From: Tenacibaculum tangerinum
Lineage (GTDB): Bacteria > Bacteroidota > Bacteroidia > Flavobacteriales > Flavobacteriaceae
DNA length: 64,000 nt
NCBI RefSeq assembly: GCF_029853675.1
Contig: NZ_CP122539.1
Span: 3,119,001-3,183,000 of the forward strand
Direction of reading: 5' to 3'
Shown here piece by piece: positions 48,879 to 63,636 of the stretch (within the stretch, counting starts at the first letter, position 1; each line of letters opens with the position of its first letter). The notes under the pieces are model-generated. The model was not told where the DNA came from. It was given only the letters and a program-made list of their open reading frames with translations, and did not search any database. Both the position numbers and the translations under genes were made by a program.

Positions 48879-51269
48879 ATGAATTCACCAAGAATTACAT
48901 TTATCATTGTACTTTTTTCTTATTCCTCTTATGCTCAAATAGAACTAAAAGGAATTGTAAAAGATTCTTCAAATGTTGCTATAGAGTTTGCTAATGTTGT
49001 ACTGACCAATGAAAAAAATGAAATTGTTAAAGGAGTAATTACTGATGAAAAGGGAGAATTTAGTTTATCAGCTAAAAAAGGGACATATAAACTATCAATT
49101 AGTTTTTTAGGGTATAAGGATTGGGTAAAAAAAGTAACTTTAGATGATAGTTTTGACTTTGGAATTGTAATTCTTGAAGAAAGTCAGAATAATTTAGATG
49201 AAGTTGTAGTTGCTGGAAGAAAAAAAATAATTGAACGAAAAGGGGATAGAATAATATTTAATGTACAAAATAGTATCCTAGCTAATGGCATTAGTGGTAT
49301 TGATCTTCTGAAGAATGTTCCTAGAATTGACCCTACATCTGAGGGCCTAAGAATAATTGGGAAAAGCAATGTCCAGGTATTGATTAACGGTAAAATTTTA
49401 AATATTGACGGTGTTGATTTAAAAAATTATCTAAACTCATTACGTTCGGATAATATAGAAAAAATTGAAGTTATTACCAGTCCTTCCTCAAAATATGATG
49501 CATCTGGTAATAGTGGACTTATAAATATTTTGCTTAAAAAAAAGTCTGTTTTAGGTTTTGATGGTAGTATTACATCTTCCTATATTCAAAGAACCAAACC
49601 AACGAATAATCAATCTTTGAATTTAAGTTACTCTAATAAAAAACTCATTATTGGTTATAATGTTTTTTTAGGTAAGGAAAATAGAGTTTCCGAAAAGAAT
49701 AACGAATATTTTTTTCTAAATGAAACAAGAAGCTCATCTGAGAATTCCAAAAGAAACAATGAGGGTTTGAGTAATACTTTTAATTTAGACTACAAACTAA
49801 CTAAAAATTCCAATTTTGGTTTTTATTTAAATTTTAACAAATGGAATAATGATGTAGATTACCTTTCAACTGTTAAATTTATAGAAAATAATACCACAAG
49901 TAAAGCACAAGTTCTTTCTTCAATTATTGATGGTAAATATAACTTTGTTTCGGTATCTCCTTATTATGATATTAAGTTAGACTCCATTGGGAAAGTCATA
50001 AAATTAAGATACAACTTCATAAAAAGTGAAACAGATAATAGCAGCAATTTAAGTTCAGAAAATTACATGGGTAGTTTTCAAACTCTGGAAGAAACTTCAT
50101 CATCTAGAAATGATATAGAAAACGATTTTACTGTTAATTCTGTAGGTGTTGATGTTGAATTGCCCTTAAAAAGTATGAAAATAGAGTTTGGAGCAAAATA
50201 TTTAAAATTTGATGCGGATAATAATGTCCATTTTTTTAACACTAGCTCAGGAATAGATGTAATTGATAGTGATTTAACTAATAATTTTAGGTATCACGAA
50301 CAAATTATAGCGACTTATTTTAGTGGTAATAAAAGTTTTGGTGAAAAAGTTTATACCTCAGTTGGGTTAAGATTTGAAAGTACTGAAGTAAATGGTAATT
50401 TGATAAGTCATGATGCCTTCTTTATAAATAACTACAATAATTTATTTCCAAATATTTTTATTTCCTATGATCCTAACGACAATCATTCTTATTCTCTTTC
50501 GTACAACAGAAGAATTTTTAGACCAACATTAACAGATCTTAATCCTTTTAGAGTATATCAAGATGAATTTAATTATAGCGTTGGAAATCCAAATTTAATG
50601 CCTAGGCTTAGCGATAATGTTGAGATTGGTTATACATATAAAGGAGAGCTTTCTATAGCTATGTATGTATCAAGAACTTCAGATAACATAGCCATAATAA
50701 CTACTCCCTCCAATGATAATCAAACCATAATTACCCAACCACTAAATGCTTTAACTACCTATGATTTTGGCAGCGATATAAGTTGTTATTGGAAAATAAA
50801 TAACAATTTAAGGTCTTTTAACAGTTTTAATTTAACATATCAAAAATCAACATCTTCGGATGCCAACCTTCCTGATGATGATTTAAAAGGGTTAAATGCT
50901 TCAATATCTTCAAACACAACGTATGTTTTTAATAGTGAGAAAGATCATAAATTTTTTCTCAACGCATTTTACGCGTTTCCTGGAGTTGAAGAGGCTTATG
51001 TATCTAAAAATATTTTCTTTCTTAAACTTGGTGCCAATTTAAACTTCCTTAATAAAAAGATTAATATTAATTGCTATATAGGCGATTTATTCAATACCAC
51101 TATAGCGAGGAATACGGTAAATTTTCAAACATTTTTATTTAAGAATAGGATTTTTAATGACAATAGACAATTCAATATATCTCTAACGTATAAGTTTGGA
51201 AATAATAAATCTAAAAAAGCAAGAGACATTAATTTCTCTGAAAAAGATAGATTAAAAAAGGAGCAATAA
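48879..51269 (+). CDS. Outer-membrane beta-barrel protein (TonB-receptor-like, OMP_b-brl_3)
   Basis: A 796-residue outer-membrane protein. Signal peptide (ITFIIVLFSYSSYAQ), then a carboxypeptidase-regulatory-like domain (about 22-105; IELKGIVKDSSNVAIEFANV), a plug-like region (NVPRIDPTSEGLRIIGKSNV, with NIEKIEVITSPSSKYDASGN) and a C-terminal barrel ending NISLTYKFGNNKSKKARDIN. It matches Bacteroidota barrel proteins often paired with peptide-export clusters. Start 1 base before the next gene's spacer; it heads the peptide locus and may carry the product across the outer membrane or bind it (inference). Confidence 0.85.
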   Translation: MNSPRITFIIVLFSYSSYAQIELKGIVKDSSNVAIEFANVVLTNEKNEIVKGVITDEKGEFSLSAKKGTYKLSISFLGYKDWVKKVTLDDSFDFGIVILEESQNNLDEVVVAGRKKIIERKGDRIIFNVQNSILANGISGIDLLKNVPRIDPTSEGLRIIGKSNVQVLINGKILNIDGVDLKNYLNSLRSDNIEKIEVITSPSSKYDASGNSGLINILLKKKSVLGFDGSITSSYIQRTKPTNNQSLNLSYSNKKLIIGYNVFLGKENRVSEKNNEYFFLNETRSSSENSKRNNEGLSNTFNLDYKLTKNSNFGFYLNFNKWNNDVDYLSTVKFIENNTTSKAQVLSSIIDGKYNFVSVSPYYDIKLDSIGKVIKLRYNFIKSETDNSSNLSSENYMGSFQTLEETSSSRNDIENDFTVNSVGVDVELPLKSMKIEFGAKYLKFDADNNVHFFNTSSGIDVIDSDLTNNFRYHEQIIATYFSGNKSFGEKVYTSVGLRFESTEVNGNLISHDAFFINNYNNLFPNIFISYDPNDNHSYSLSYNRRIFRPTLTDLNPFRVYQDEFNYSVGNPNLMPRLSDNVEIGYTYKGELSIAMYVSRTSDNIAIITTPSNDNQTIITQPLNALTTYDFGSDISCYWKINNNLRSFNSFNLTYQKSTSSDANLPDDDLKGLNASISSNTTYVFNSEKDHKFFLNAFYAFPGVEEAYVSKNIFFLKLGANLNFLNKKININCYIGDLFNTTIARNTVNFQTFLFKNRIFNDNRQFNISLTYKFGNNKSKKARDINFSEKDRLKKEQ

Positions 51270-51270
51270 A

Positions 51271-52691
51271 ATGAAAATTATTCAAAGCTTTTGGACAGGA
51301 AAACATCAAAATCTGAATTTTGGTTTTGGTTGGAGTTCAGCTAAATATAATTATTTGAGCTGGATTTTAAGTGCTTGTCAATTACGGAAATATTATGATG
51401 AATTAGAGCTCTTTACGGATAAGTTGGGATATAATTTGCTCATTGAAAAACTAAACTTACCGTATACAAAAGTTCATGTTGTATTAGATGAGCTTAATAA
51501 ATATGATGACAATTTATGGGCCTTAGCAAAGATAAAGGCTTATAGTGTAATGAAAGAACCTTTTTTACATGTAGATGGTGATGTATTTATTTTTGAAGCA
51601 TTTGATGATGATTTAATTTCCAGAGGAGTTATTACTCAAAATATTGAAACTACAAGTAATTATTATTGGGAGATGTGGACAAAAATAAAGCCTCAACTAA
51701 CTTTCATCCCTGAGTGTATTGCAAATTATGATCAAAAAATACATAGTAAAGCTTATAATATGGGGATTTTTGGAGGTCATAATTTATCATTTATAAATGA
51801 GTATGCCAAAACTTCTTTCAACTTTGTTAATGAGAATAAGAATAATTTATCTAAAAGAAATGCCTATAACTTCAACATATTTTTTGAACAAGTATTACTA
51901 TATGAATTAACTAATCAAAAAAAATTGAAGTAGATTTTCTGATAAATGAAGATATAAAAGATAATGAATATGAGGGCTTGGGGAATTTTGAAGAAGTTCC
52001 AAATAAGAGAAAATATCTTCATCTGTTAGGTTTTTATAAACAACAAAACTTAGCCTGTAATAAGATGGATGTTTATGTTCAGAAATTTTATCCCAAATTT
52101 TACAACCACCTTGAAAACTTATTGAATTTAAAACCTAAATTATCTTCATTTGGGTTCAGGTATAAGAGTAGTGATTTAGTTAATTTAACCAATTCTTACT
52201 TAAGCAAAATAATTTTAGAAGATAATATATCACAACTAAGTAAAACTCAAAAAATATACTCAAAAAACGTATTATCTGAGGGTGCTTTAACTACGTTTTT
52301 AAATTATATTAAAAATAAGGAGGATTTTTATTTGATAAAATTAACAAACTACTCATTTGAAGCTGAATCTGAAAATTTGACTATTGAGCAACTACATGAA
52401 GAATGTTATAAAATAAAGCTTCTAGCAATTGATTATGTCATTTTCGACATTATAAATTCTAATATTAAATATTCTGATTTTGAAGATAGAGCTGTTAAGT
52501 ATATCGATGATGATTTTCCAAAAGAAGAAATCGATAATTTTCTTGAAGTCCTCTCAAAGAGAATTTCAATTTTTATTTCGTTTGGAATTTTTTATCCATT
52601 ACATATAAACAAATACAAAAAAATATTGCGCAATAATAGTTTTCCTACTTTTCTCAAAAATGGGCAGGAAGAAGTGGATGCCTGTATCTAA
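51271..52691 (+). pseudogene. DUF6734-like, glycosyltransferase-type protein, frameshifted
   Basis: Two adjacent frames (51271-51933 and 51978-52691) join into one protein of about 473 residues: the A run at 51917-51924 has eight A where nine would continue LTNQKK into IEVDFLINEDIKDNEYEG and GNFEEVPNKRKYLHLLGF. The front (KIIQSFWTGKHQNLNFGFGW) and the DxD-like FLHVDGDVFIFE are like small glycosyltransferases/DUF6734. Either a real mutation, a phase-variable A tract, or a sequencing error. Placed in the peptide locus directly after the barrel gene (1-base gap), so a role in modifying the product is plausible. Confidence 0.7.
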
Positions 52692-52725: not shown

Positions 52726-52887
52726 ATGAAAAAAATAAATTTAAAAGAATTTAAACAGGATCAGTTAACCGTTAGCAAACTACTTGAAACTAAAGGAGGA
52801 TCTTGTAATACGAGTGGTACAAAATACTGTAGCACTAAATCTTGTGGAGGTGATTCAGACTCAAAGAGTTGTGATTCAGACTTCTAA
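52726..52887 (+). CDS. gwsA1: Peptide precursor 1 (grasp-with-spasm type), 53 aa
   Basis: Start ATG 52726 with good spacing in an AT-rich leader. Leader MKKINLKEFKQDQLTVSKLL, then ETKGG, the double-glycine site for the C39 exporter at residues 24-25. The 28-residue core starts SCNTSGTKYC and has five Cys, many Ser, and a C-terminal Asp/Ser stretch (GGDSDSKSCDSDF). Carboxylate and hydroxyl residues are what ATP-grasp ligases join; the Cys could form disulfides. The leader closely matches that of the next precursor. Confidence 0.9.
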   Translation: MKKINLKEFKQDQLTVSKLLETKGGSCNTSGTKYCSTKSCGGDSDSKSCDSDF

Positions 52888-52900
52888 TTCACATTAGTTT

Positions 52901-52934
52901 GAAGTCATCTCTTGAAAAGTCTAGAGATGACTTC
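52901..52934 (+). promoter_or_regulatory. Hairpin after precursor 1
   Basis: Perfect 12-bp stem gaagtcatctct/agagatgacttc with a 10-base loop, 13 bases after the stop. No T run follows, so it is more likely an mRNA-stabilising or processing element, or a leaky terminator that raises precursor levels over the enzymes. Confidence 0.75.
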
Positions 52935-52965
52935 TCCATTACTTTAATTTATTAATTTTTTTAAA

Positions 52966-53130
52966 ATGAGAAAAATAAGCTTAAAAGAGTTTGAAACTTC
53001 TGAAGTTGAAGTTAAGAAACTCCTAGAAGTAAAAGGAGGTAGTTCTTGTGTTACTGGATCTCCAGGTTGTTCAACTAATGTTGCAACTAAAGATGGGGAC
53101 AATAGAAGATGCGATAGTTACTTCTGTTAG
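52966..53130 (+). CDS. gwsA2: Peptide precursor 2 (grasp-with-spasm type), 54 aa
   Basis: Start ATG 52966, preceded by the same ttttttaaaatgaraaaaataa context as precursor 1. Leader MRKISLKEFETSEVEVKKLL then EVKGG at residues 24-25. The core (29 residues, SSCVTGSPGCSTNVATKDGD then NRRCDSYFC) has four Cys and Asp/Thr/Ser/Lys/Arg residues, and ends in Cys. Only the leader and the Cys-x-spacing (GxPGC/TKYC) resemble precursor 1, so the cores diverged quickly, as is common in such peptides. Confidence 0.9.
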   Translation: MRKISLKEFETSEVEVKKLLEVKGGSSCVTGSPGCSTNVATKDGDNRRCDSYFC

Positions 53131-53139
53131 TTTAAAAAT

Positions 53140-53169
53140 CTAGATAAGGATTGTTTAATTCTTGTCTAG
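53140..53169 (+). promoter_or_regulatory. Hairpin after precursor 2
   Basis: Stem ctagataagga/ttcttgtctag (11 bp with two G-U pairs, 8-base loop), 10 bases after the stop. Same position and style as the hairpin after precursor 1 but of different sequence, which suggests a conserved function. Confidence 0.6.
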
Positions 53170-53200
53170 GTTGTTAATGTAAAAAATGAAATAAAAATAT

Positions 53201-54217
53201 ATGATAATAATATTTACAAGTGAAAATGAACTATCAACATTACAAGTTGCAAAGTTATTAAGATATTATAAAAAAGAGTTTTATATAGTAAATCCAGATG
53301 AAGATGTTTTTAAGTTTAGTCGTTTAAATCAAGAAGGAATATTTTTTTATCATTCCGTTTTAAAAAAAGAAATTAATTTTTTAAAAGTTACAGCATGCTG
53401 GTGGAGAAGAACAGGTTTGGGGATTAACAATTTTATAAAATCTCATAAATATTCTGAAAAAATTGTTAAGAATAAGAATCATAATTTCAAAGAATTAATT
53501 AATGGAAAAGAAAATCCTTTAAGTTCTGAATTTAAAGATTTGAGAGAATACATTTTTCAGAGAGTATTTGAAACAGCTGAAATAAATTTAGGTCACCCTA
53601 AACTTTTTGGATTAAACAGGTTGAATATTTTGAATTTGGCAAATAATTATGGATTGAAAGCACCGAATTATGAAGTTGTGAGTAATGCAAATCAAATTCC
53701 AAAATCCAAGTTTATAGGCAATCTTTTTGTAACTAAAGCCATCTCTAATGGGTTATACAATTTAGTTGATGGTAAGTCATACTATACCTATACAGAACTC
53801 CAATCTAAAAATGCTTTTAAGGGTAAAAATATAAATTTATTTCCCTCATTATTGATGGAGGTAATAGAGAAAAAGTTTGAAATAAGATCTTTTTATATTG
53901 ATGGGAAATTTTATAGTATGGCCATTTTTTCGCAATCTAATGAACAAACAGAAGTAGATTTCAGAAAGTATAGTGAAACTAAACCAAATAAAACAGAGCC
54001 CTACAAATTGCCCGATGAAATTGAAATTAAACTGGATAAATTATTTAAACAGATTGGTTTAAATACTGGTTCAGTGGATTTAATTGTGGATAATAATAAT
54101 GAATATGTATTTCTTGAAATAAACCCAGTTGGTCAATATGGTATGACAAGTGAGCCTTGTAACTATAACTTAGATAATGTAATTGCAAATTTTTTAATAT
54201 ATGGAACTATTAGTTAA
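53201..54217 (+). CDS. gwsG: ATP-grasp peptide ligase of the grasp-with-spasm system
   Basis: A 338-residue ATP-grasp enzyme matching the GwsG type: TACWWRRTGLGINNF near the front, HPKLFGLNRLNILNLANNYG, the ATP-binding LFVTKAISNGLYNLV, EVIEKKFEIRSFYIDGKFYS and the metal-binding end LIVDNNNEYVFLEINPVGQY. By family it activates Asp/Glu side chains with ATP and links them to Ser/Thr/Lys (ester or amide), as in graspetides; the precursors' D/S/T/K-rich cores fit. 71 bases after precursor 2; overlaps the next small gene. Confidence 0.92.
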   Translation: MIIIFTSENELSTLQVAKLLRYYKKEFYIVNPDEDVFKFSRLNQEGIFFYHSVLKKEINFLKVTACWWRRTGLGINNFIKSHKYSEKIVKNKNHNFKELINGKENPLSSEFKDLREYIFQRVFETAEINLGHPKLFGLNRLNILNLANNYGLKAPNYEVVSNANQIPKSKFIGNLFVTKAISNGLYNLVDGKSYYTYTELQSKNAFKGKNINLFPSLLMEVIEKKFEIRSFYIDGKFYSMAIFSQSNEQTEVDFRKYSETKPNKTEPYKLPDEIEIKLDKLFKQIGLNTGSVDLIVDNNNEYVFLEINPVGQYGMTSEPCNYNLDNVIANFLIYGTIS

Positions 54218-54431
54218 AAAAATTGAACTAAAAATAGAAGATTTAGAGAATTTACCTTTATTTTTTAAAGTAATTTATTTTAATGAAATGTCTGATCTTG
54301 AAGATGAAAACAAGTTAATGAAATTTAATAAGAGTTTAAATGCTATACAAATGAGGCATTATGAACCTAGTAGAGTAATCTGTAATTCTATAAATACTAA
54401 TTATTTTAAACCTAACCAAGATGAATTATAA
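54201..54431 (+). CDS. Small protein linking gwsG and gwsS, 76 aa
   Basis: Unrecognised. It overlaps the end of the ATP-grasp gene by 17 bases and the start of the SPASM gene by 11 bases, so all three are translationally coupled. Sequence is helical and charged (LKIEDLENLPLFFKVIYFNE) with a Cys near the end (RVICNSINTNYF). It could be a partner or specificity subunit of the maturases. Confidence 0.68.
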   Translation: MELLVKKIELKIEDLENLPLFFKVIYFNEMSDLEDENKLMKFNKSLNAIQMRHYEPSRVICNSINTNYFKPNQDEL

Positions 54432-55464
54432 TTTAACCAATTATTTTATATTATCTTCTAGTTGTAGTATAACCAAAGGAGCAAAAAGAAGTTTAATTCA
54501 AGATTTTATTAGAGGAACATCTAATTTAATCTCAAATGAATACTTTGATTTGATAAATTACATTAATCGTAAAAGAATTAATGATGTTTTGAAAGAAATT
54601 GACGATAGTTCTTCAAAATTTTTTTTTGATTTTCTCAACTTTATGTATGAAAACGAATATGCTTTTTTTGTTGATGAAATAACTTCTTTCCCCGAAAAAT
54701 CTAATATACTTTACGATGAGCACGTAGTGCTCAAAGATTGTATAATTGAAGTAGAAAAAGATGATTTTGATTTAAATATATTTAAGTCAAATATAAAACA
54801 ACTTGATAGTATAATGTGTCAAGATATTCAGTTGTGGTTTAAAGATGAAATTGATTCTTGTTTGTTATTAGATATTATCAATTTTACTAGTAGTTTTGAT
54901 TTTCAATGTATAGAGCCTTATTTTAACCATTCTCAGCTTTTTGAAGAAGAATTTTATTTAAAGATAATTGATGAGCACCCTTGTATAAGCAAAATATGTT
55001 TATTTAATGCCGAAAGTTCTTACGTACATGATATAATGAGTATTCATGAGAATAAACATCCTATGCTGATGGGGCAGTTAATTTATATTAGTCATCCTTT
55101 AAGCTCAAATAATTGTGGAATTATAAATTTTGAAAGTCTCTCATTTGGCGATGAAAATCAATTTAGGGCTAATAAAAAATTTAATAGCTGTCTATATAAG
55201 AAGCTAACAATAGACTCGAAAGGAAATTTAAAAAACTGTCCACATTTAACTACAAACAGTAACGATAATACAATTGCTAATGTGGTTAGTAACCCTGATT
55301 TTCAGAAGATGTGGCTCATAAAAAAAGATGATATTGAAATATGTAAAGACTGCGAGTTTAGATACAATTGTAATGATTGTAGAGCTTTTACTGTAAAAGC
55401 AAACTATGTGTATTCTAAACCATTAAAATGTACTTATAACCCTTATACAAACGAATGGGCTTGA
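54421..55464 (+). CDS. gwsS: SPASM-domain peptide maturase of the grasp-with-spasm system
   Basis: A 347-residue protein matching the GwsS type: an N-terminal part without the radical-SAM CxxxCxxC motif and a C-terminal SPASM-like cysteine set, seen as Cys257, Cys273 (FNSCLYKKLT; KNCPHLTT) and Cys308/311/317/320 (ICKDCEFRYNCNDC), with a later LKCTYNPYTNEW. Such proteins likely hold iron-sulfur clusters but their reaction is not established. Overlaps the ABC exporter start by 10 bases (ATGGGCTTGA). Confidence 0.92.
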   Translation: MNYNLTNYFILSSSCSITKGAKRSLIQDFIRGTSNLISNEYFDLINYINRKRINDVLKEIDDSSSKFFFDFLNFMYENEYAFFVDEITSFPEKSNILYDEHVVLKDCIIEVEKDDFDLNIFKSNIKQLDSIMCQDIQLWFKDEIDSCLLLDIINFTSSFDFQCIEPYFNHSQLFEEEFYLKIIDEHPCISKICLFNAESSYVHDIMSIHENKHPMLMGQLIYISHPLSSNNCGIINFESLSFGDENQFRANKKFNSCLYKKLTIDSKGNLKNCPHLTTNSNDNTIANVVSNPDFQKMWLIKKDDIEICKDCEFRYNCNDCRAFTVKANYVYSKPLKCTYNPYTNEWA

Positions 55465-57668
55465 AAAGTTTTTTGAAAAAATTCCCTCATGTTTCTCAAC
55501 ATGATCATATGGACTGTGGTCCAGCATGTTTAGCTATTATTTCAAAATATTATGGCAAAGAATATTCTATACAAGAATTAAGAGAATATTGTTCTTTGGC
55601 TAGAGATGGAGTTACAATGTTAGGCATTGAAGATGGAGCGTTAGAGATAGGCTTTGAAACAATTGCGGTACAAATTTCTACACAAGATTTAATAATAAAG
55701 AATCCTCTACCTTGTATTTTATATTGGGATAATAATCATTTTGTTGTATTATACAAAATAACTAAATCTATTTTTACAAATAATTATTATTTTCATATTT
55801 CTGATCCAGCCTTTGGAAGAATAAAAATAAAACAATCTGATTTTGAAAAAGTATGGTTAAATAATAATAGTAAGGGTATTGCTTTAATTCTTAATACAAA
55901 AGATTCTTTTTTTGAAAAGACACCTAAATACGTTAATAAGTTTACTTTTTCGAATATTATTAATATAATAAAACCGAACAAAAAAGAGTTTTTTATACTC
56001 CTGTTTGGGTTTTTATTTAGTAGTTTCTTTACTCTAATATTTCCATACCTAACACAAGCATTAATTGATATTGGAATCAGTGACAAAAACCTAAACTACA
56101 TTTTTTTAATATTACTGGCACAACTTTTTCTGTTTTTTGGTACAACAATAATAGACGTAGTCAGAAGTTGGGTTTTAATGTTTGTCAACTCAATGATTAA
56201 TATTCAGATTATTGCAGATTTTTTAAATAAGATAATAAAGTTACCTTTTCATTTTTTTGACACAAAACAATTAGGTGATTTCACATCAAGAATTCAAGAT
56301 CATCATAGGATTCAAGAGTTTTTAACCTCGCAAAGTCTTATAGTTGTTTTTTCATCATTCAATTTTATTATTTACTTCTTTGTTTTGTCTTTTTATGATC
56401 CTAAAATTCTTATTATATATTTATCTCTAACATTGATATCAATAATTTGGTCTTTATATTTTCTTAAGAAAATTGAACGGCTAGACTATAATAGGTTTAG
56501 TTATTTAAAAGCAGCCCAACAAAATGTTTTTGAATTAGTCAACGGAATTGTAGAAATAAAACTAAATAATACCGAAGAATATAAAGTTAATAAATGGCAA
56601 GCTAATCAGTCAAAGCTTTTCTCTGTAGACTTTGAATCTTTAAAAGTTACCCAATACCAAAACTTAGGTTTTGAATTTATTAATCAACTTAAAAATATAT
56701 TAATAATTTTCATTGCTGCTCGAGAAGTGATTATCGGAAATATTACATTGGGAACATTACTAGCGATTAGCTACATCATTGGAATGATGAATAACCCCCT
56801 TAGCCAATTGATAGAGTTTTTAAAATCTTGGCAATTTGCAAAACTAAGTTTTTTTAGATTGAATGAAGTTCAATTAATGGAAAATGAAGATAATAAATCC
56901 GATATTTTAGTTTCAGATTTTTCACAGAATAGTTTTATTGAGATTTCTAACTTAGACTTTCATTATCATGGTTTTCGTTCTCCAAAAGTTATTAATAATT
57001 TAAGTATTAAAATCCCGTTTGGAAAAACTACAGCTATAGTTGGTGAAAGTGGTAGTGGTAAAACCACACTTATGAAGCTTTTGTTAAAATTTTATTCGCC
57101 ATCAAAAGGTGAAATTAATTATTCAGGTTTTCCTATAAGTGATATTTCAGCAAAGGACTTAAGAAAAAACTGTGGTGTAGTGATGCAAGACGGTTATATA
57201 TTTTCAGATACATTAGAAAGGAATATTGCAACTGGTTCTGAAGAGATAGATAATTCTAAACTTGAAAATGCTGTTAAAATAGCCAATTTACAAGATTATG
57301 TAGATAGTTTACCTCAAGGATATAAAACTATGTTAGGGTCTGGAGGGAATGGTGTTTCTGGAGGGCAAAAACAAAGAATTTTAATAGCAAGAGCTGTTTA
57401 TAAGAATCCTAAATTCATATTTTTCGATGAAGCTACATCTTCTTTAGATGCTGAAAATGAAAAAATAATATATGATAATTTGGATTTGTTTTTTAAGGGA
57501 AAAACAGTCGTGAAAATTGCTCATAGATTATCTACGGTAAAGAATGCAAATCAAATTATCGTAATTAAAAAAGGTAAAATTGTTGAAATAGGAAATCATA
57601 AAAAATTAGTATCCAATAAAGGAGTGTATTACAATTTAGTGAAAAATCAATTAGAATTAAGTGTTTAG
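55455..57668 (+). CDS. Peptidase-containing ABC exporter (PCAT, C39 type)
   Basis: A 737-residue exporter that cuts the leader after GG and secretes the peptide. The C39 peptidase domain (1-135) has catalytic Cys21 (HMDCGPACLAIIS), His95 (WDNNHFVVLY) and Asp117 (ISDPAFG). The membrane domain is about 165-450; the ATPase has Walker A GESGSGKTT at about 530, signature NGVSGGQKQRILIA and Walker B KFIFFDEATSSLD, ending HRLSTVKNANQIIV. It is complete and overlaps the SPASM gene. Confidence 0.95.
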   Translation: MGLKSFLKKFPHVSQHDHMDCGPACLAIISKYYGKEYSIQELREYCSLARDGVTMLGIEDGALEIGFETIAVQISTQDLIIKNPLPCILYWDNNHFVVLYKITKSIFTNNYYFHISDPAFGRIKIKQSDFEKVWLNNNSKGIALILNTKDSFFEKTPKYVNKFTFSNIINIIKPNKKEFFILLFGFLFSSFFTLIFPYLTQALIDIGISDKNLNYIFLILLAQLFLFFGTTIIDVVRSWVLMFVNSMINIQIIADFLNKIIKLPFHFFDTKQLGDFTSRIQDHHRIQEFLTSQSLIVVFSSFNFIIYFFVLSFYDPKILIIYLSLTLISIIWSLYFLKKIERLDYNRFSYLKAAQQNVFELVNGIVEIKLNNTEEYKVNKWQANQSKLFSVDFESLKVTQYQNLGFEFINQLKNILIIFIAAREVIIGNITLGTLLAISYIIGMMNNPLSQLIEFLKSWQFAKLSFFRLNEVQLMENEDNKSDILVSDFSQNSFIEISNLDFHYHGFRSPKVINNLSIKIPFGKTTAIVGESGSGKTTLMKLLLKFYSPSKGEINYSGFPISDISAKDLRKNCGVVMQDGYIFSDTLERNIATGSEEIDNSKLENAVKIANLQDYVDSLPQGYKTMLGSGGNGVSGGQKQRILIARAVYKNPKFIFFDEATSSLDAENEKIIYDNLDLFFKGKTVVKIAHRLSTVKNANQIIVIKKGKIVEIGNHKKLVSNKGVYYNLVKNQLELSV

Positions 57669-57673
57669 AGTTT

Positions 57674-57838
57674 ATGAAAAAAGAATTTATTAATAGGAAA
57701 GACTTTTTTATTGTGAATTATGGTTTGTACATAATCATAATTGCCTCTTTAATAATTATAATTACGCTTCTTATTATCAAGTTTGATGATAAATCTGTTC
57801 TGGAAAGAGTTTTGGATTATTATTTAAATAAAAAATAA
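57674..57838 (+). CDS. Small single-helix membrane protein, 54 aa
   Basis: ATG 57674, 5 bases after the exporter stop. One central helix (YIIIIASLIIIITLLIIKF) with short charged ends (KKEFINRK; LERVLDYYLNKK). No family. Same operon as the exporter, so it may be an accessory, an immunity protein, or an anchor for HlyD-type export, but nothing in the sequence decides. Confidence 0.68.
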   Translation: MKKEFINRKDFFIVNYGLYIIIIASLIIIITLLIIKFDDKSVLERVLDYYLNKK

Positions 57839-57893
57839 AGAAGGTAAAAGTTGACACCTAAAAAATGTAATTGACAATTAAAATTTCATAGTT

Positions 57894-58068
57894 ATGAAAA
57901 CAAAAAAAATAATCTCTTAGAGTTAAAAATCCAAAGTTTAGAAATTAGTAAAATCTTAGAAGTTAAGGAGTGTCATGTTCAAGAGGAGCCACAACCTCTA
58001 GAAAGTTTGTAACGCATTCAAGTAGTTATGAAAGTGATCCTGCAAGTAGATATGATAATGACTATTAA
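57894..58068 (+). pseudogene. Third peptide precursor, degenerate
   Basis: From ATG 57894 the frame stops at once, but with an added base in the A tract after MKTK it reads a leader NLLELKIQSLEISKILEVK, and after a second shift at AAGGAG (lost GG region) it reads GVSCSRGATTSRKFVTHSSS then YESDPASRYDNDY and TAA. So it is a precursor like the other two (LLEVKGG-type leader end, Ser/Thr/Asp/Arg-rich core, one Cys) that decayed by frameshifts, or its A tracts vary. Unlike the other two it has no hairpin after it. Confidence 0.78.
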
Positions 58069-58080
58069 AACAATTAAAAA

Positions 58081-58464
58081 ATGAAAAATTCAATTAAAAT
58101 ATTATTGACTTTAATTTCTCTAACAATTTATTTATCAATGTATAAGCCAAAAAAAGAGAGTAACTATGAAATTAGATTTCATTATAATCATGGTGCTATA
58201 GGGTTATTATGTGATAATGATTGTTCTTGGACTGATTTATATATACGTAAAAAATCATTTTATATAAATGAGCATGGTATGGTGGATATAAAAAGCGACT
58301 TAGATGCTTTAAAACAATCAACCTTTTTATTTTCTGTCGAGAAAAAAGGAAATAAAATTCATTTAAAATCCTTAAAGGGATCTGACTGGGAAGATCTGTC
58401 ATTTATAATCCCTAGGAATAAAAATAATTCAATTGTTGTTAATAGTAAAGGAATAGAAGAATAA
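58081..58464 (+). CDS. Exported hypothetical protein in the peptide locus, 127 aa
   Basis: Start ATG 58081. N-terminal hydrophobic signal or anchor (KILLTLISLTIYLSMYK), then a mostly beta domain (EIRFHYNHGAIGLLCDNDCS, YIRKKSFYINEHGMVDIKSD). Two Cys in LLCDNDCSW could pair. Three bases before the VKOR-thioredoxin gene. Candidate immunity or carrier protein; no family recognised. Confidence 0.65.
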   Translation: MKNSIKILLTLISLTIYLSMYKPKKESNYEIRFHYNHGAIGLLCDNDCSWTDLYIRKKSFYINEHGMVDIKSDLDALKQSTFLFSVEKKGNKIHLKSLKGSDWEDLSFIIPRNKNNSIVVNSKGIEE

Positions 58465-58467
58465 AGT

Positions 58468-60027
58468 ATGGATTATCATAAAATTACTACCTTATTAAAG
58501 GAGTATAATTATTTTATAATTAAGGAAGATTGGGATAAGTCTGTTAAGGATCATCCAGATTTTCCTCAGTTAAATTCTATTGCTGATATTTTTAATCAAT
58601 ATGGAATTGACAACTATATAGCCCAAGTTCCCAAAGAATTATTTGATGATTTACCAGAGATTTTTATCGGGATGGTTGATTTTGATGGAAGTATAGAAAC
58701 CTTAATAGTTAATATTAGCGATAAAAGTAGTATTAATTTAATTTTTTTCGATTCTGTTAGTCAAGTAACAAAAGATGAATTTTTGAGAATTTGGAATGGT
58801 TACATTTTAGTTATTGAAGAAAACGAACAAACGATAGACACTCCAAAAAAAATAATAGATTTTAAACCTTATTTCTCGAAACTACTCCTCTTATTAGTTT
58901 TCATTTCATTCTCAATAATGGGATATTACTTCAATTTTTTAAACTATAAATCTGCTTCTTTATTGTTTATAAATAGTTTGGGCATATTCTTAAGTTTTTT
59001 AGCAGTAAAAGAAAGTTTAGGTTTTGGTAATAAACATACGTTCAAAGTATGCTCAACAATAAAAAATGGAAATTGTAACCAAGTCATAAAGTCAGAAAGT
59101 GCACATCTGTTTTTAGGAATTACTTATAGTGATCTATCTCTCATCTTTTTTCTTTTTTCATTCATTATTAGTCTATTTGTTAAAAATCATCCTGAAGTTC
59201 TTAGTTTAAACTTTGTTATATTACCTCTAACTATTGGGGTAATCATTTTATCAATATATCAACAAAAGAACATTTTAAAAAAATGGTGTATAATTTGTTT
59301 AGGAATTTCATTTCTTGCTTTAATCCAATCTCTAATTATTATTTCTTCTTTTGAAGTTAATATTATTACAAGCTTTCGAAGTTTGTTTTTTTCTTTTTTT
59401 ATTTACCTATTAGTATTTACCCTTTTTTACAATGTAAAACCACTGCTAAATAAACTTAGTGATTTAACATTTGAAAAATATCAGAGAGGAGAAATCTATA
59501 AAAACAAGGAAGTTTTTGATTTATTTTCAAAAAATGAGATTTTGATTCCTAAAAAAGATTATGAAGATTTGTTTTCAATTAAATTGAATAATATTGAATC
59601 AAAAAACACACTTACTTTAGTTTTATCTCTTGACTGCAGTTATTGTAAATCAGTATATAATAGCTTTAGAAACCTCTTTTTTTATTATAAGAATAAAGTT
59701 AATTTTAAAGTAATATTCAATTTTGAAAAGGATAAAATGGATGAACATAATATAGAAATAATCAATAGAATATATAGCTTTAGGCATGATGTTAAAAAAG
59801 CTACGCAATCTTTGGATGAATTTTTATTGATGAATTACACAAGTCATAAGTGGTTAAGAAAATGGAAGAAGAAAGATTCATCTTTTACTGAAAAAATTTT
59901 AAAAAATATCGAAATACTTGAATCGAATAATTTAACAGATACTCCATGTTTACTGATTAATAATCGATTGTGCCCAAAAGAATACAGAGTTGAAGATATA
60001 AAGTATTTTTTAAATTCAATAATTTAG
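58468..60027 (+). CDS. VKOR-thioredoxin fusion with C39-like front domain
   Basis: A 519-residue membrane protein. A soluble N-terminal domain (1-130; FPQLNSIADIFNQYGIDNYI) resembles an inactive C39-like fold with catalytic Cys missing. A VKOR domain (about 136-345) has several helices and the four redox cysteines Cys195, Cys203 (CSTIKNGNC) and Cys274/277 (WCIIC). The C-terminal thioredoxin-like domain has CSYC (Cys390/393) and the cis-Pro region TPCLLINNRL. VKOR-Trx proteins make disulfides at the periplasmic side, so this enzyme likely oxidises the Cys-rich peptides during export. Confidence 0.88.
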   Translation: MDYHKITTLLKEYNYFIIKEDWDKSVKDHPDFPQLNSIADIFNQYGIDNYIAQVPKELFDDLPEIFIGMVDFDGSIETLIVNISDKSSINLIFFDSVSQVTKDEFLRIWNGYILVIEENEQTIDTPKKIIDFKPYFSKLLLLLVFISFSIMGYYFNFLNYKSASLLFINSLGIFLSFLAVKESLGFGNKHTFKVCSTIKNGNCNQVIKSESAHLFLGITYSDLSLIFFLFSFIISLFVKNHPEVLSLNFVILPLTIGVIILSIYQQKNILKKWCIICLGISFLALIQSLIIISSFEVNIITSFRSLFFSFFIYLLVFTLFYNVKPLLNKLSDLTFEKYQRGEIYKNKEVFDLFSKNEILIPKKDYEDLFSIKLNNIESKNTLTLVLSLDCSYCKSVYNSFRNLFFYYKNKVNFKVIFNFEKDKMDEHNIEIINRIYSFRHDVKKATQSLDEFLLMNYTSHKWLRKWKKKDSSFTEKILKNIEILESNNLTDTPCLLINNRLCPKEYRVEDIKYFLNSII

Positions 60028-60136
60028 TTAATGCTAATCAAAGTAAAATGTTGTTACTCTATTATTCTATGATTTTTTATTTAGTTTTCCCTTTTTTGGA
60101 AAACTACTATTGGAATAAATATTTAAATTAAAATTG

Positions 60137-61150
60137 ATGAATAAAGTTTCGTTTTGTATGGTTTGTATGAATAGATTGGAAAACCTAAGAAAAACCATTA
60201 AAAAAAATATTGAGGACAATATTAATTATCCGAATGTAGAGTTTATTTTACTAGACTATAATTCAAAAGACGGATTAGAGAATTGGGTTAAACAGAATTT
60301 AAATAATTATCTTGATTCTGGGATTTTAAAGTATTATAAAACTATTAAACCTAAATATTTTCATAGATCACATTCTAGAAATGTAGCTTTTAAGTTAGCA
60401 ACAGGAGACATTTTATGCAATCTTGATGCTGATAATTTTTTAGGAAAAGAATTTGCCCACTATATAAATTATCACTTTAGTTTCAGAGATGATATTTTTT
60501 TAATTTCAGGAAAAAAGGATGGTTCATATGGAAGAGTTTGTGTAAAAAGGAGAGATTTTTTTAGTATTAGGGGATATGATGAAAGAATGTCTGGTTGGGG
60601 GTTTGAAGATGATGATTTATATCATAGACTAGAAATGTTAGGTTTACAAAAAATCAAAATTTTCAAATCAAAATTTTTAAATTCAATTGAGCACGAGAGT
60701 AATGCTTCTTTTAGTAATGATAAAGAAGTACTTTCTGTAAAGCATATTTTAATCCATCATATAAATCGTCTTGAAAGTCATGTAATCTATTTGTTCGATA
60801 CGGGAAAATATAACATGGGTAGAGTTTTTAGAAAAAATGAATTTGAGTTAGATGAAATTCATTTAGATGAAGCATGGGAAGAAGGAACTTTTGTTAAAAA
60901 AAATAATTTTTTATTGCTGAAATCCGATACAACAAATCTAAAATTATTGGTTATAGATGAATTTAAGTCTTTTAAAAATTCAGAAGGAAAGATTTATAAG
61001 AAAATTTTTGAGAAAGAGTTGTTAGATTTTCTACTTATACAATTAACATCACTCAAAAATAAAAACATATTCCAATCGACGATAAAAAATGCAAAGGTAC
61101 AAGCTAATACTGAAAATAATTGGGGTCTTTCTAAATTAATTAAATCGTAA
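60137..61150 (+). CDS. Family 2 glycosyltransferase
   Basis: A 337-residue GT-A glycosyltransferase starting at ATG 60137 (an upstream TTG at 60134 is adjacent). Motifs: the opening VSFCMVCMNRLENLRKTI, acceptor loop HRSHSRNVAFKLATGDI, the metal-binding NLDADNFL, and GYDERMSGWGFEDDDLYHRL typical of galactosyltransferase-like proteins. It lies in the peptide locus, so glycosylation of the peptide or a carrier is the natural inference. Confidence 0.88.
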   Translation: MNKVSFCMVCMNRLENLRKTIKKNIEDNINYPNVEFILLDYNSKDGLENWVKQNLNNYLDSGILKYYKTIKPKYFHRSHSRNVAFKLATGDILCNLDADNFLGKEFAHYINYHFSFRDDIFLISGKKDGSYGRVCVKRRDFFSIRGYDERMSGWGFEDDDLYHRLEMLGLQKIKIFKSKFLNSIEHESNASFSNDKEVLSVKHILIHHINRLESHVIYLFDTGKYNMGRVFRKNEFELDEIHLDEAWEEGTFVKKNNFLLLKSDTTNLKLLVIDEFKSFKNSEGKIYKKIFEKELLDFLLIQLTSLKNKNIFQSTIKNAKVQANTENNWGLSKLIKS

Positions 61151-61152
61151 TT

Positions 61153-61995
61153 ATGATAATAAGATTCTCCATTTTTCTAGATAAAAAACTATTAACTAAC
61201 GTTATAGTTGACTTTTTAGAACCTTTAACAAGCAGGTTAATTCAATCTAATCAAGTAAAGTATGTTGATTATTCTATAAACTTTGAAGGTCTCTGGGTAC
61301 TTTTTTCTATTAATTCACATAAAATTAGAGAAGAGATTATCAATGATATTAGTAGTTCGTGGGAAACCTTTTCATCAAGCTTTAAAACAAATTTTAATTA
61401 TAATGAAGCTATAATTAATACATTATTCTTAAAATACCCTAATGGTTATTTAAAATTTTATAACTATAACATTAATGAAGCGGATCAAGAACTTTCTCCA
61501 AGAATATCGAAGTTTACTATGGGGAACATTCAAATTCTGAAATATTTTAATGATAATAAGGATGAAGAAAATAAAATTATTTTATTTTTTATTTTTTTGT
61601 ACTGTATAGGGGGCTATTCTTTTTTTGAAATAAATAAAATCTGTAGTGTTTTGATAGATTCATTTTCATTCAATAATGAAAATAAAAAAAACATAGTTGT
61701 CAGGGCTAAGAATGTAGTCAATAAAAACTATAAAGAGCTTAAAAGATATTTTGATGATTGTTTTTTCGAACTTTCTAAATTTAATCAAGATTCTAGTTTA
61801 GTGAGTAGTGATTGGCAACTAGTGTCCAAATGGAAATTTTTTTATGGCAACCTTATTAATACAGATAGTATTAAAGAAGAAGATAGATTAATAAATTTAT
61901 TTGATAAATATAAAAATCAATTAATGATCAGCTCAGGAGAAGCATATTTTATTTTAGAAATTATACATCAGACTGTGGGAGAGAGTATTTCCTAA
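61153..61995 (+). CDS. Unrecognised protein at the end of the peptide locus, 280 aa
   Basis: Not assigned. Soluble, rich in Phe, Tyr, Asn and Ile, with two Cys (CIGGYSFFEINKICS, DDCFFELSK). It starts 2 bases after the glycosyltransferase stop. The C-terminal end GESIS followed by TAA lies 3 bases before IS982 copy 3, and whether the native gene was longer is unclear. I considered a lantibiotic dehydratase/thiopeptide-type partner but the RYGG-type motif is missing. Confidence 0.6.
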   Translation: MIIRFSIFLDKKLLTNVIVDFLEPLTSRLIQSNQVKYVDYSINFEGLWVLFSINSHKIREEIINDISSSWETFSSSFKTNFNYNEAIINTLFLKYPNGYLKFYNYNINEADQELSPRISKFTMGNIQILKYFNDNKDEENKIILFFIFLYCIGGYSFFEINKICSVLIDSFSFNNENKKNIVVRAKNVVNKNYKELKRYFDDCFFELSKFNQDSSLVSSDWQLVSKWKFFYGNLINTDSIKEEDRLINLFDKYKNQLMISSGEAYFILEIIHQTVGESIS

Positions 61996-61998
61996 ATA

Positions 61999-62435
61999 AC
62001 GTGAGTTCGGGATAAAAAATTTTTTTAATTACACGAAAAAAAGCGAAAAATTTAGTAAATTAAAGTACTGATTTTTAATTGTATAACTAAATTTTCCACT
62101 ATGGTTTCTGATTTTAAAATTACTGAATTTTTCTGTTTAATTGATGATTTTTGTACCGAAATTAATCAAGTTATTGATAAAAATGCTTTAGAAACCTGTT
62201 CAAAGATAGTTAGACGAAGAAAGCCTAAACTCACCCAAAGTGAAATAATCACAATTATGGTGCTTTTCCATTTTAGTGGTTTTAGGTGTTTTAAACACTT
62301 TTATATCGAATATGTTAGCAAACACTTGTCAAAAGAATTTCCAGATTTAGTTTCCTATAACCGATTTGTTGAATTGAAAAAGCGTTGTTCAGTGCCTATG
62401 ATACTGTTTCTTCAAATGCACTATTTAGGTCAATG
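61999..62435 (+). mobile_element. IS982-family element, copy 3, 3'-truncated
   Basis: The left end acgtgagttcggg and the first 437 bases match copies 1 and 2 with a few differences (start codon region ATGGTTTCTG, and a Cys-to-Tyr change in LQMHYLGQC). The right half is gone: an IS3 element begins at 62436, and its far side is not IS982 sequence, so a deletion followed or accompanied the IS3 insertion. Confidence 0.93.
62101..62435 (+). pseudogene. IS982 transposase, N-terminal fragment
   Basis: Residues 1-111 of the transposase (MVSDFKITEFFCLIDDF ... LQMHYLGQC), then the frame runs into the IS3 terminus and ends. All catalytic motifs are missing. Confidence 0.9.
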
Positions 62436-62536
62436 TGTAGGCTTCCCTATTTTAGAACTGTTTGTTAATCCAAATATATGGTTTTCCGTTTTAAAATAGA
62501 TTGGCTTTCCTTTCATATTATTGCTTAAAAGCCAAT

Positions 62537-63295
62537 TTATTTTAAAATGAGCCTAGCGGCAGCGTCATGTTGCTTTTGAGCATATTTTACAGGTGGAATT
62601 TTACCCAAAGCATCGTGTGGCCTATGATTGTTATAATCATCCATCCATATCTGTGTTTGTTCTCTTACTTGATCTATATTCTCAAAAATATATTTATTGA
62701 GTACACCTCTTCGATAGGAACCGTTGAATCGCTCCACAAATGCATTTTGAGTTGGTTTTCCAGGCTGTATGTACTTAAATTCAATATCGTGCATCCTACT
62801 CCATTCATTGGTTATATGTGCGATAAATTCAGTACCATTATCCATTCTGATCTTTGTAGGTTTTCCTTTTTTATTGATAAGGTGATTAAGTACCCATACA
62901 ATACGATTACTGGTTAAGGAAAAGTCGATCTCTATATGCAGCGCTTCTCTGTTATAATCATCGATAATATTAAATGCCCTAAAGCGTCTTTTATTTTCTA
63001 AAACGTCTGTTACGAAGTCCATACTCCAAGTATGGTTGATTTGTTGAGGAACTTCAAGTGGTTCTTTTATTCTTGCTGGTAATCGTTTCTTTGCTTTTGG
63101 TCTTAAAGGAAGCCCTAATGCTACATATACTCTGTGCATACGCTTATGATTCCAAGATTTCCCTTCATTGCGTAATCTGTCGTAAGCTTTCCAAAACCCT
63201 TCTTCTGAATGTTGTTCTGCTTTTTGCTTCAATGCCTGTTCTACTTCAGAATCGTCCTTAACCAATGGCTTATAATAGTAAACGCTCTTACTCAT
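62537..63295 (-). CDS. IS3-family transposase OrfB (DDE)
   Basis: 252 residues from the ATG at 63295; the frame is open further upstream (KAIKPCRKRSITKELIHYGI, RACRVLK) and is joined to orfA by a -1 ribosomal frameshift at GAAAAAAAGC. DDE motifs: WSMDFVTDVL, IRMDNGTEFIAH and PTQNAFVERFNGSYR. Last part NNHRPHDALGKIPPVKYA is typical of IS3. It looks active. Confidence 0.93.
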   Translation of the reverse strand: MSKSVYYYKPLVKDDSEVEQALKQKAEQHSEEGFWKAYDRLRNEGKSWNHKRMHRVYVALGLPLRPKAKKRLPARIKEPLEVPQQINHTWSMDFVTDVLENKRRFRAFNIIDDYNREALHIEIDFSLTSNRIVWVLNHLINKKGKPTKIRMDNGTEFIAHITNEWSRMHDIEFKYIQPGKPTQNAFVERFNGSYRRGVLNKYIFENIDQVREQTQIWMDDYNNHRPHDALGKIPPVKYAQKQHDAAARLILK

Positions 63296-63369
63296 TTTAA
63301 GAACACGGCACGCCCTGCTGATGCCGTAATGAATAAGTTCTTTCGTAATACTTCGCTTACGACAAGGCT

Positions 63370-63636
63370 TTATAGCTTTTTTTCTATAATCTCCTTTGCC
63401 ATTTGATGGTCAAGAGCAAGTGTGGCATACATTTGCTTAAGTTTACGGTTTTCTTCTTCCAATTCTTTTAAACGCTTAAGCTCCTTGGAGTTCATACCTG
63501 CATACTTACTTCTCCATTTGTAAAAGGCCGCAGCACTTACACCATGTTCACGAGTAATCTCTGGCACTGGCTTACCGTTATCAAACTCCTTTAAAATCTT
63601 TGCGATTTGTGTCGGACTAAATTTACTTTTTCTCAT
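63370..63636 (-). CDS. IS3-family transposase OrfA
   Basis: 88 residues with helix-turn-helix (GKPVPEITREHGVSAAAFYK then WRSKYAGM) and leucine zipper (ELKRLKELEEENRKLKQMYA). Ends KEIIEKKL at the slippery A7G run. Confidence 0.93.
   Translation of the reverse strand: MRKSKFSPTQIAKILKEFDNGKPVPEITREHGVSAAAFYKWRSKYAGMNSKELKRLKELEEENRKLKQMYATLALDHQMAKEIIEKKL

Follow-up and report, generated by a model that had tools for sequence, protein, structure and literature searches.

Gene content and family assignment

The window analysed here is a stretch of 64 000 nucleotides of Tenacibaculum tangerinum DNA (contig NZ_CP122539.1, positions 3 119 001–3 183 000 of the forward strand), taken from a genome of 3.61 Mb in a single contig, and its subject is a + strand peptide operon of the grasp-with-spasm (Gws) type, bounded by an outer-membrane barrel gene (48879) and a gene for a 280-aa protein (end 61995). 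A second, distinct Gws locus (L023) lies elsewhere in the same genome. An earlier note on positions 52726–61995 had listed two precursors with double-glycine (GG) leaders, a C39 exporter and a glycosyltransferase, all of which were found; the barrel and the frameshifted glycosyltransferase-like gene (DUF6734) that it placed with them are also present, both upstream of that span. Its gene list was incomplete, as a small LPL gene and a decayed third precursor had been missed. The features are as follows.

48879–51269, + strand: outer-membrane beta-barrel, PF14905 (282.6 bits, Pfam) with CarboxypepD_reg; same place in the Kordia algicida OT-1 cluster (L074)
51271–52691, + strand: DUF6734 gene in two frames (51271–51933 and 51978–52691); Pfam 285.4 and 29.1 bits, cutoff 27
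52726–52887, + strand: precursor 1, GG leader, core with four Cys and an acidic tail (DxD[ST]x3DxD); TIGR04149 17.2 bits, below the cutoff of 25
52901–52934, + strand: RNA hairpin 3′ of precursor 1 (z = −4.1)
52966–53130, + strand: precursor 2, GG leader, core with four Cys; TIGR04149 20.7 bits, below the same cutoff of 25
53132–53177, + strand: RNA hairpin 3′ of precursor 2 (z = −6.2)
53201–54217, + strand: GwsG, ATP-grasp ligase; TIGR04192 355.9 bits, cutoff 230
54201–54431, + strand: LPL-family 76-aa protein (ENLPLFF; LPL motif read by eye)
54421–55464, + strand: GwsS, predicted RRE, pseudo-radical-SAM barrel and seven-Cys SPASM domain, no CX3CX2C; TIGR04193 291 bits, cutoff 175
55455–57668, + strand: C39 peptidase–ABC exporter with CGPAC, NNHF and DPAFG
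57674–57838, + strand: 54-aa protein containing a single hydrophobic stretch; occupies the position of an HlyD-like gene in the related loci L025 and L084
~57894–58068, + strand: decayed precursor, the third, with its leader-like part out of frame with its core-like part (read by eye); resembles the Kordia precursor
58081–58464, + strand: 127-aa protein with an N-terminal hydrophobic stretch (open reading frame)
58468–60027, + strand: VKOR–thioredoxin oxidase with an N-terminal pseudo-C39 domain; PF07884 42.4 bits, cutoff 27.5
60137–61150, + strand: GT2/GT7-like glycosyltransferase; PF00535, PF10111 and PF02709 all above cutoff
61153–61995, + strand: 280-aa protein, on profile comparison probably Lant_dehydr_C-like, stand-alone and diverged

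The ATP-grasp and SPASM genes scored well above the cutoffs of TIGR04192 and TIGR04193, so the naming of the pair as GwsG and GwsS in the earlier note was confirmed, and with it the assignment of the locus to a known but uncharacterised graspetide family. A GG-leader precursor stands 5′ of GwsG and the small LPL protein directly 5′ of GwsS, as in the Gws layout, and the cores hold Ser/Thr/Lys together with Asp/Glu, as graspetide cores do. In the available text of PMC8939145 (Makarova et al. 2022) grasp-with-spasm is branch 5, with 190 loci; the same text defines the LPL small-protein family and its Table 1 has PF14905 among the graspetide-associated families. Group 14 in the available text of PMC13097080 (Carter et al. 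2026) likewise carries a SPASM protein, which suggests that it corresponds to branch 5. A search of the open-licence full-text literature for the term 'grasp-with-spasm' found no paper.

For comparison, TIGR04192 was searched in 97 genus genomes (12 with a match, 11 above the cutoff) and TIGR04193 in 397 family genomes (26 and 17) and 395 phylum genomes (30 and 12), the host genome being counted each time. From a selection of the stronger matches, 56 Gws stretches no longer than 20 kb were taken, which with the window made a set of 57 loci that contain both GwsG and GwsS; a search for related loci with GwsS alone confirmed no relative. GwsG residues K179, E227, R229, D253, S291, D293, N308, G311 and Q312 are invariant in 57 of 57 loci, the PDB relatives of GwsG are AMdnB and CdnC, and LPL homologues were found with a dedicated profile in seven of the 57 (window counted). 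The GwsG tree (57 rows) grouped the window with L074, L025 and L084 at 100/100, the window and Kordia being sisters at 97/71. The gwsS gene was also seen on the Elizabethkingia anophelis plasmids NZ_CP071549.1 and NZ_CP016375.1.

The overlapping starts and stops described earlier were borne out for GwsG, the 76-aa LPL gene, GwsS and the ABC gene, which overlap successively by 10–17 bases; downstream, gaps of 3, 109 and 2 bases separate the 127-aa and VKOR genes, VKOR and GT2, and GT2 and the 280-aa gene. The exporter retains the Cys of CGPAC, the His of NNHF and the Asp of DPAFG (read from the sequence), which we take to be the catalytic residues of the C39 peptidase. A search with a Bacteroidetes promoter pattern gave no matches. 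Directly 3′ of the operon lie a short transposase-like open reading frame (62101–62499) and an IS3-type transposase pair (62537–63636; type assigned by eye).

The acidic tail D-x-D-[ST]-x3-D-x-D, or a near form of it, is carried by precursor 1 and by the precursors of L074, L025 and L084; precursor 2 and the precursors of L042, a Gws locus in which over ten precursor-like open reading frames stand in tandem (L042:6100–9450), many with a DSRRNDS motif, show a looser form. The cores have four Cys each in the window, one in Kordia, one in L025, and one and none in the two L084 cores; a further L084 open reading frame without a strict GG has three. Hairpins also follow the precursors of Kordia and L025 (z = −5.7 and −5.1) and one of the two L084 precursors (z = −4.8; the other, z = +1.0), and the L084 stretch folded at first gave none but had not been placed after a stop. 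Values of z < −3 in the 100 nt downstream were found for 34 of 76 candidate precursors, some of them surely spurious, against 19 of 121 control stretches.

Sugar and disulfide genes

The closest counterpart is the cluster of K. algicida OT-1 (L074, identical to L147; NZ_DS544873.1), which has the barrel, DUF6734, precursor, GwsG, LPL, GwsS, C39–ABC, a 55-aa transmembrane protein, GT2 and a relative of the 280-aa protein in the same order. It differs from the window in that DUF6734 is open and a single precursor, with one core Cys, was found; VKOR and the 127-aa protein were not found on the Kordia stretch examined, and the 127-aa protein had no relatives in 60 other stretches compared. Because the sugar genes recur at the same places, their presence is not accidental and the added genes are part of a cluster that is conserved. 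The earlier observation that oxidase and sugar genes share the operon was borne out for the window. L025 and L084 have the barrel, precursor, Gws core, C39–ABC and an HlyD-like gene, and no sugar genes in the stretch viewed. We infer that DUF6734, GT2 and the 280-aa gene were added to an ancestral barrel–precursor–Gws–ABC–HlyD cluster in the line leading to the window and Kordia, and that the window later acquired VKOR and cysteine-rich cores as its Kordia-like third precursor and its DUF6734 decayed. In the window and Kordia, which lack HlyD, the hydrophobic protein of 54–55 aa (window 57674–57838; L074:6812–6979) occupies the position that the HlyD-like gene has after the exporter gene in the other two loci (L025:4976–5767; L084:5925–7217), as if HlyD had shrunk to its anchor.

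The DUF6734 orthologue in Kordia is an open gene of 456 aa, predicted to have a glycogenin-like GT-A fold with a DxD motif (fold matches cover residues 1–286). Of 16 loci of the high-scoring DUF6734 subfamily, 14 have a GG-leader peptide no more than 5 kb away (0 of 20 controls), and these loci are mostly without Gws genes on the stretch; peptide glycosylation is a probable function on the strength of fold and neighbourhood, and DUF6734 would thereby gain a testable role. The window gene is broken in two frames, so one intact glycosyltransferase gene remains. The break may be real or an assembly error: window reading frames of 200 aa or longer contain 14 A/T runs of at least eight bases, of which 11 are followed by more than 200 bases of open frame before the stop and the other three (43607, 46880 and, in DUF6734, 51917) by a stop within about 100 bases (distances by hand). 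An RRE in the C-terminal part was considered on account of a strand–helix order in the models like that of the GwsS RRE, but hhalign gave E = 0.72 and the identity is not claimed. No paper on 'DUF6734' was found in the open-licence full-text literature. A second, lower-scoring subfamily (L128, L129, L191, L192; also L189 and L190) had no GG peptides by the GG rule; its surroundings look like gene sets for contractile injection or phage-tail-like particles. In L183:6444–6969, L186:4071 and L187:4141, VKOR and DUF6734 have beside them GG peptides that carry Cys-Tyr motifs (YYCANVNP and similar) and possibly form a peptide family of their own.

The GT2 protein matched a beta-1,4-galactosyltransferase and a chondroitin sulfate synthase in the PDB (E = 4e-7 to 3e-4, partial) and is 49% identical to its Kordia counterpart; the 280-aa proteins are 28% identical. 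At E ≤ 1e-10, relatives of GT2 turned up in 3 of the 299 genomes searched from the family, in 2 of 166 from the genus and in 1 of 11 from the Kordia genus, five genomes in total with the window counted once. A scan of genome contigs gave nine loci, nearly full length in Kordia and SCGC AAA160-P02 (48–50%) and partial in seven (22–47%). Three of these five genomes, SCGC AAA160-P02 (L146), Algibacter pacificus (L158; C39–ABC in pieces) and Croceivirga radicis (L159), each have a stretch with GT2, a 280-aa-like gene, C39–ABC, VKOR and a GG precursor; the L146 contig is 11 kb long, with GT2 at one end and the 280-aa piece at the other.

Judging from profiles, Lant_dehydr_C and the 280-aa protein are probably distantly related. 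Against a profile of at most 21 collected entries (some of them copies of one gene) hhalign gave E = 4.3e-4 locally (33.9%) and 2.7e-6 globally (76.1%), compared with 0.03–0.45 for four unrelated profiles; an earlier comparison with a smaller, four-sequence profile was not significant (E = 0.12). The Pfam model Lant_dehydr_C (PF14028) matched neither the window protein nor its Kordia relative, and of four proteins found by profile, P0002 and P0005 passed it (25.5 and 26.0 bits; cutoff 24.4) and P0003 and P0004 failed. The idea that the protein is an ORFan, suggested by a phmmer search that found only itself (599 candidates), was dropped, since relatives exist in Kordia and SCGC AAA160-P02. The Lant_dehydr_C-like set, VKOR and DUF6734 had no useful match among PDB sequences, a single one to a polyketide-type synthase (1.4e-4) being taken as chance. 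A Lant_dehydr_C gene lies within 10 kb in 9 of the 57 Gws loci (e.g. L025:13384–16457), on the strand opposite to GwsG in eight of the nine, and in 0 of 20 controls.

The oxidase had been called a VKOR–thioredoxin fusion, of which the VKOR part stood (PF07884, with CIIC at residue 274 and CSYC at 390) and the Thioredoxin_4 match fell below its cutoff (17.6 bits; cutoff 23.2). In 14 VKOR proteins the N-terminal 150 residues are related to exporter C39 domains (profile comparison, 97.3%, E = 1.8e-11), the alignment beginning after the segment of the catalytic Cys, and Pfam C39 exceeded its cutoff in 7 of 10, the window protein being below it. The first Cys of the window protein comes no earlier than residue 195, so the catalytic Cys of a C39 peptidase is missing; in the VKOR protein of L159 residue 4 is a Cys, close to where the catalytic one would be expected, and not every member need be dead. 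It is plausible, and a natural reading of these alignments, that the dead domain holds GG leaders near the oxidase. No paper on VKOR with double-glycine peptides in Bacteroidetes was found in the open-licence full-text literature.

We read the locus, at a probability of roughly 0.6, as a graspetide operon fused to a glycosylation and disulfide module and making short secreted graspetides, the sugar and the disulfides being predictions from the genes. Three observations weigh against this: one glycosyltransferase-type gene (DUF6734) is broken, VKOR occurs in only 7 of the 57 Gws loci, and across them its presence shows no obvious tie to the Cys count of the precursors. A general rule that VKOR goes with Cys-rich Gws precursors was abandoned, many VKOR-free loci having 2–5 Cys (by inspection), and the disulfide claim therefore rests on the window locus and the DUF6734 loci. 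In the GwsG tree the Gws loci with VKOR fall at several separate places.

The glycosyltransferases, VKOR and the 280-aa protein could instead form a neighbouring system, for a surface sugar or another bacteriocin, beside a plain Gws locus whose precursors they never touch. Most Gws loci indeed lack these genes (GT2 occurs in two of 57 and VKOR in seven), some relatives of GT2 are glycosyltransferases whose names refer to cell wall or capsule, and GT2, a 280-aa-like protein and VKOR occur without any Gws gene seen on the L146, L158 and L159 stretches, whose genomes gave no matches in the TIGR04192 genus and TIGR04193 family searches (their inclusion in the samples being inferred). In Kordia, however, the same genes stand on both sides of the Gws core on one strand, with those from GwsG to the 280-aa gene overlapping or separated by no more than 11 bases; the window genes 3′ of the exporter follow on the same strand at the gaps given above, and the GG rule found no precursors other than Gws-type ones in either operon. 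This separation of the two gene sets is considered rather unlikely.

A cluster in decay that makes no product any more would account for the two broken genes (DUF6734 and the third precursor) and for the transposase-like reading frames directly downstream, but open reading frames remain for ten further genes and for the two other precursors, the invariant GwsG residues are kept and so are the GwsS, C39 and VKOR motifs, which makes it improbable.

GwsS and the question of radical chemistry

The earlier note had GwsS lacking a radical-SAM core, which proved right for the cluster motif, but the structure prediction shows, beside a PqqD-like winged-helix RRE domain and a SPASM domain, a degenerate radical-SAM-like barrel. 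A leader-binding partner fits the evidence better than a radical enzyme does; a non-radical role in holding the substrate is suggested by the predicted structure and the loss of the motif, and to speak of a 'SPASM reaction', as was done before, is probably the wrong frame. The available text of PMC8939145 labels the SPASM protein a radical SAM enzyme and proposes thioether chemistry. That GwsS is a true radical-SAM-type maturase with unusual cluster binding, forming thioether or C–C links, fits this proposal, the barrel and SPASM fold kept in the model, the conserved SPASM cysteines and the cysteines in many cores, but is very improbable given that CX3CX2C is found in none of the 57 GwsS sequences (window included), that the relaxed motif C-x(2-5)-C-x(2-3)-C in residues 86–245 occurs only in L138, a shortened 268-aa reading frame whose SPASM region falls inside that interval, and that several precursors in Gws loci have no cysteine. 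A PDB search with the GwsS profile gave a chain named OT3 at 4.7e-5, which led no further. If GwsS is an RRE-bearing pseudo-radical-SAM partner, hunting for radical chemistry would be misdirected and reconstitution should bring GwsG, GwsS and LPL together.

Proposed pathway and comparison with known systems

The pathway set out here is a prediction built on the observed gene content, loss of the radical motif, predicted folds and recurrence of the modules. The RRE domain of GwsS would bind the GG leader of each precursor and hold the substrate without being a radical enzyme itself, with LPL as a second small partner. GwsG, by analogy with its family, would phosphorylate Asp residues of the acidic tail and join them to Ser/Thr or Lys further up the core. 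The GT2/GT7-like enzyme would then attach a hexose, either to the core itself or to what is made from it; the partners of this enzyme would be the glycogenin-like DUF6734 protein and the Lant_dehydr_C-like 280-aa protein, which recur with GT2 beside GG-leader peptides elsewhere, and since DUF6734 is broken in the window at most part of the sugar would be added. VKOR–thioredoxin, steered by its dead C39 domain, would oxidize the four core cysteines, and the C39–ABC exporter would cut at GG and export the peptide. The fuller picture, offered tentatively, is of graspetide–glycocin hybrids: side-chain-linked, disulfide-braced and glycosylated peptides, with GwsS as scaffold, VKOR as a reader of the same leader and DUF6734 as a new GG-peptide glycosyltransferase family of Flavobacteriaceae. 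Gws is a large, poorly characterized graspetide group, which would gain sugar and dedicated disulfides if this is true, and the open Kordia cluster is a ready test bed.

Sublancin-type glycocins combine a GG-leader Cys-rich peptide, a glycosyltransferase, a C39–ABC exporter and a thiol-disulfide enzyme, and the window has genes for all four. It differs from them in adding an ATP-grasp ligase and a SPASM protein, and in that its glycosyltransferases are GT7-like and glycogenin-like. Examples of glycocins in the available text of PMC9576775 are from Bacillota. The idea of a partner protein for a graspetide synthetase is shared with rosaritide, whose synthetase, in the available text of PMC13097080, needs MirC in a PPIase-associated cluster, whereas the partner proposed here is an RRE–pseudo-radical-SAM–SPASM protein with LPL. 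The secondary modifications of graspetides named in the introduction of that paper do not include sugar or dedicated disulfides, and its main text lacks the words 'glycosyl', 'vkor' and 'disulfide'; the main text of PMC8939145 lacks 'vkor', 'glycosyl', 'thioredoxin' and 'disulfide'. The combination of Gws, sugar and disulfide genes was not found in the open-licence full-text literature on graspetides, glycocins and SPASM/ATP-grasp systems. The Gws systems described in the available text of PMC8939145 share with the window the ATP-grasp ligase, LPL directly 5′ of the SPASM protein, GG precursors upstream, the C39–ABC exporter and the outer-membrane barrel; the window adds to these a VKOR oxidase, a Lant_dehydr_C-like protein and a pair of glycosyltransferase-type genes. 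The Gws family is known, the combination of genes is new and the view of its SPASM protein is corrected.

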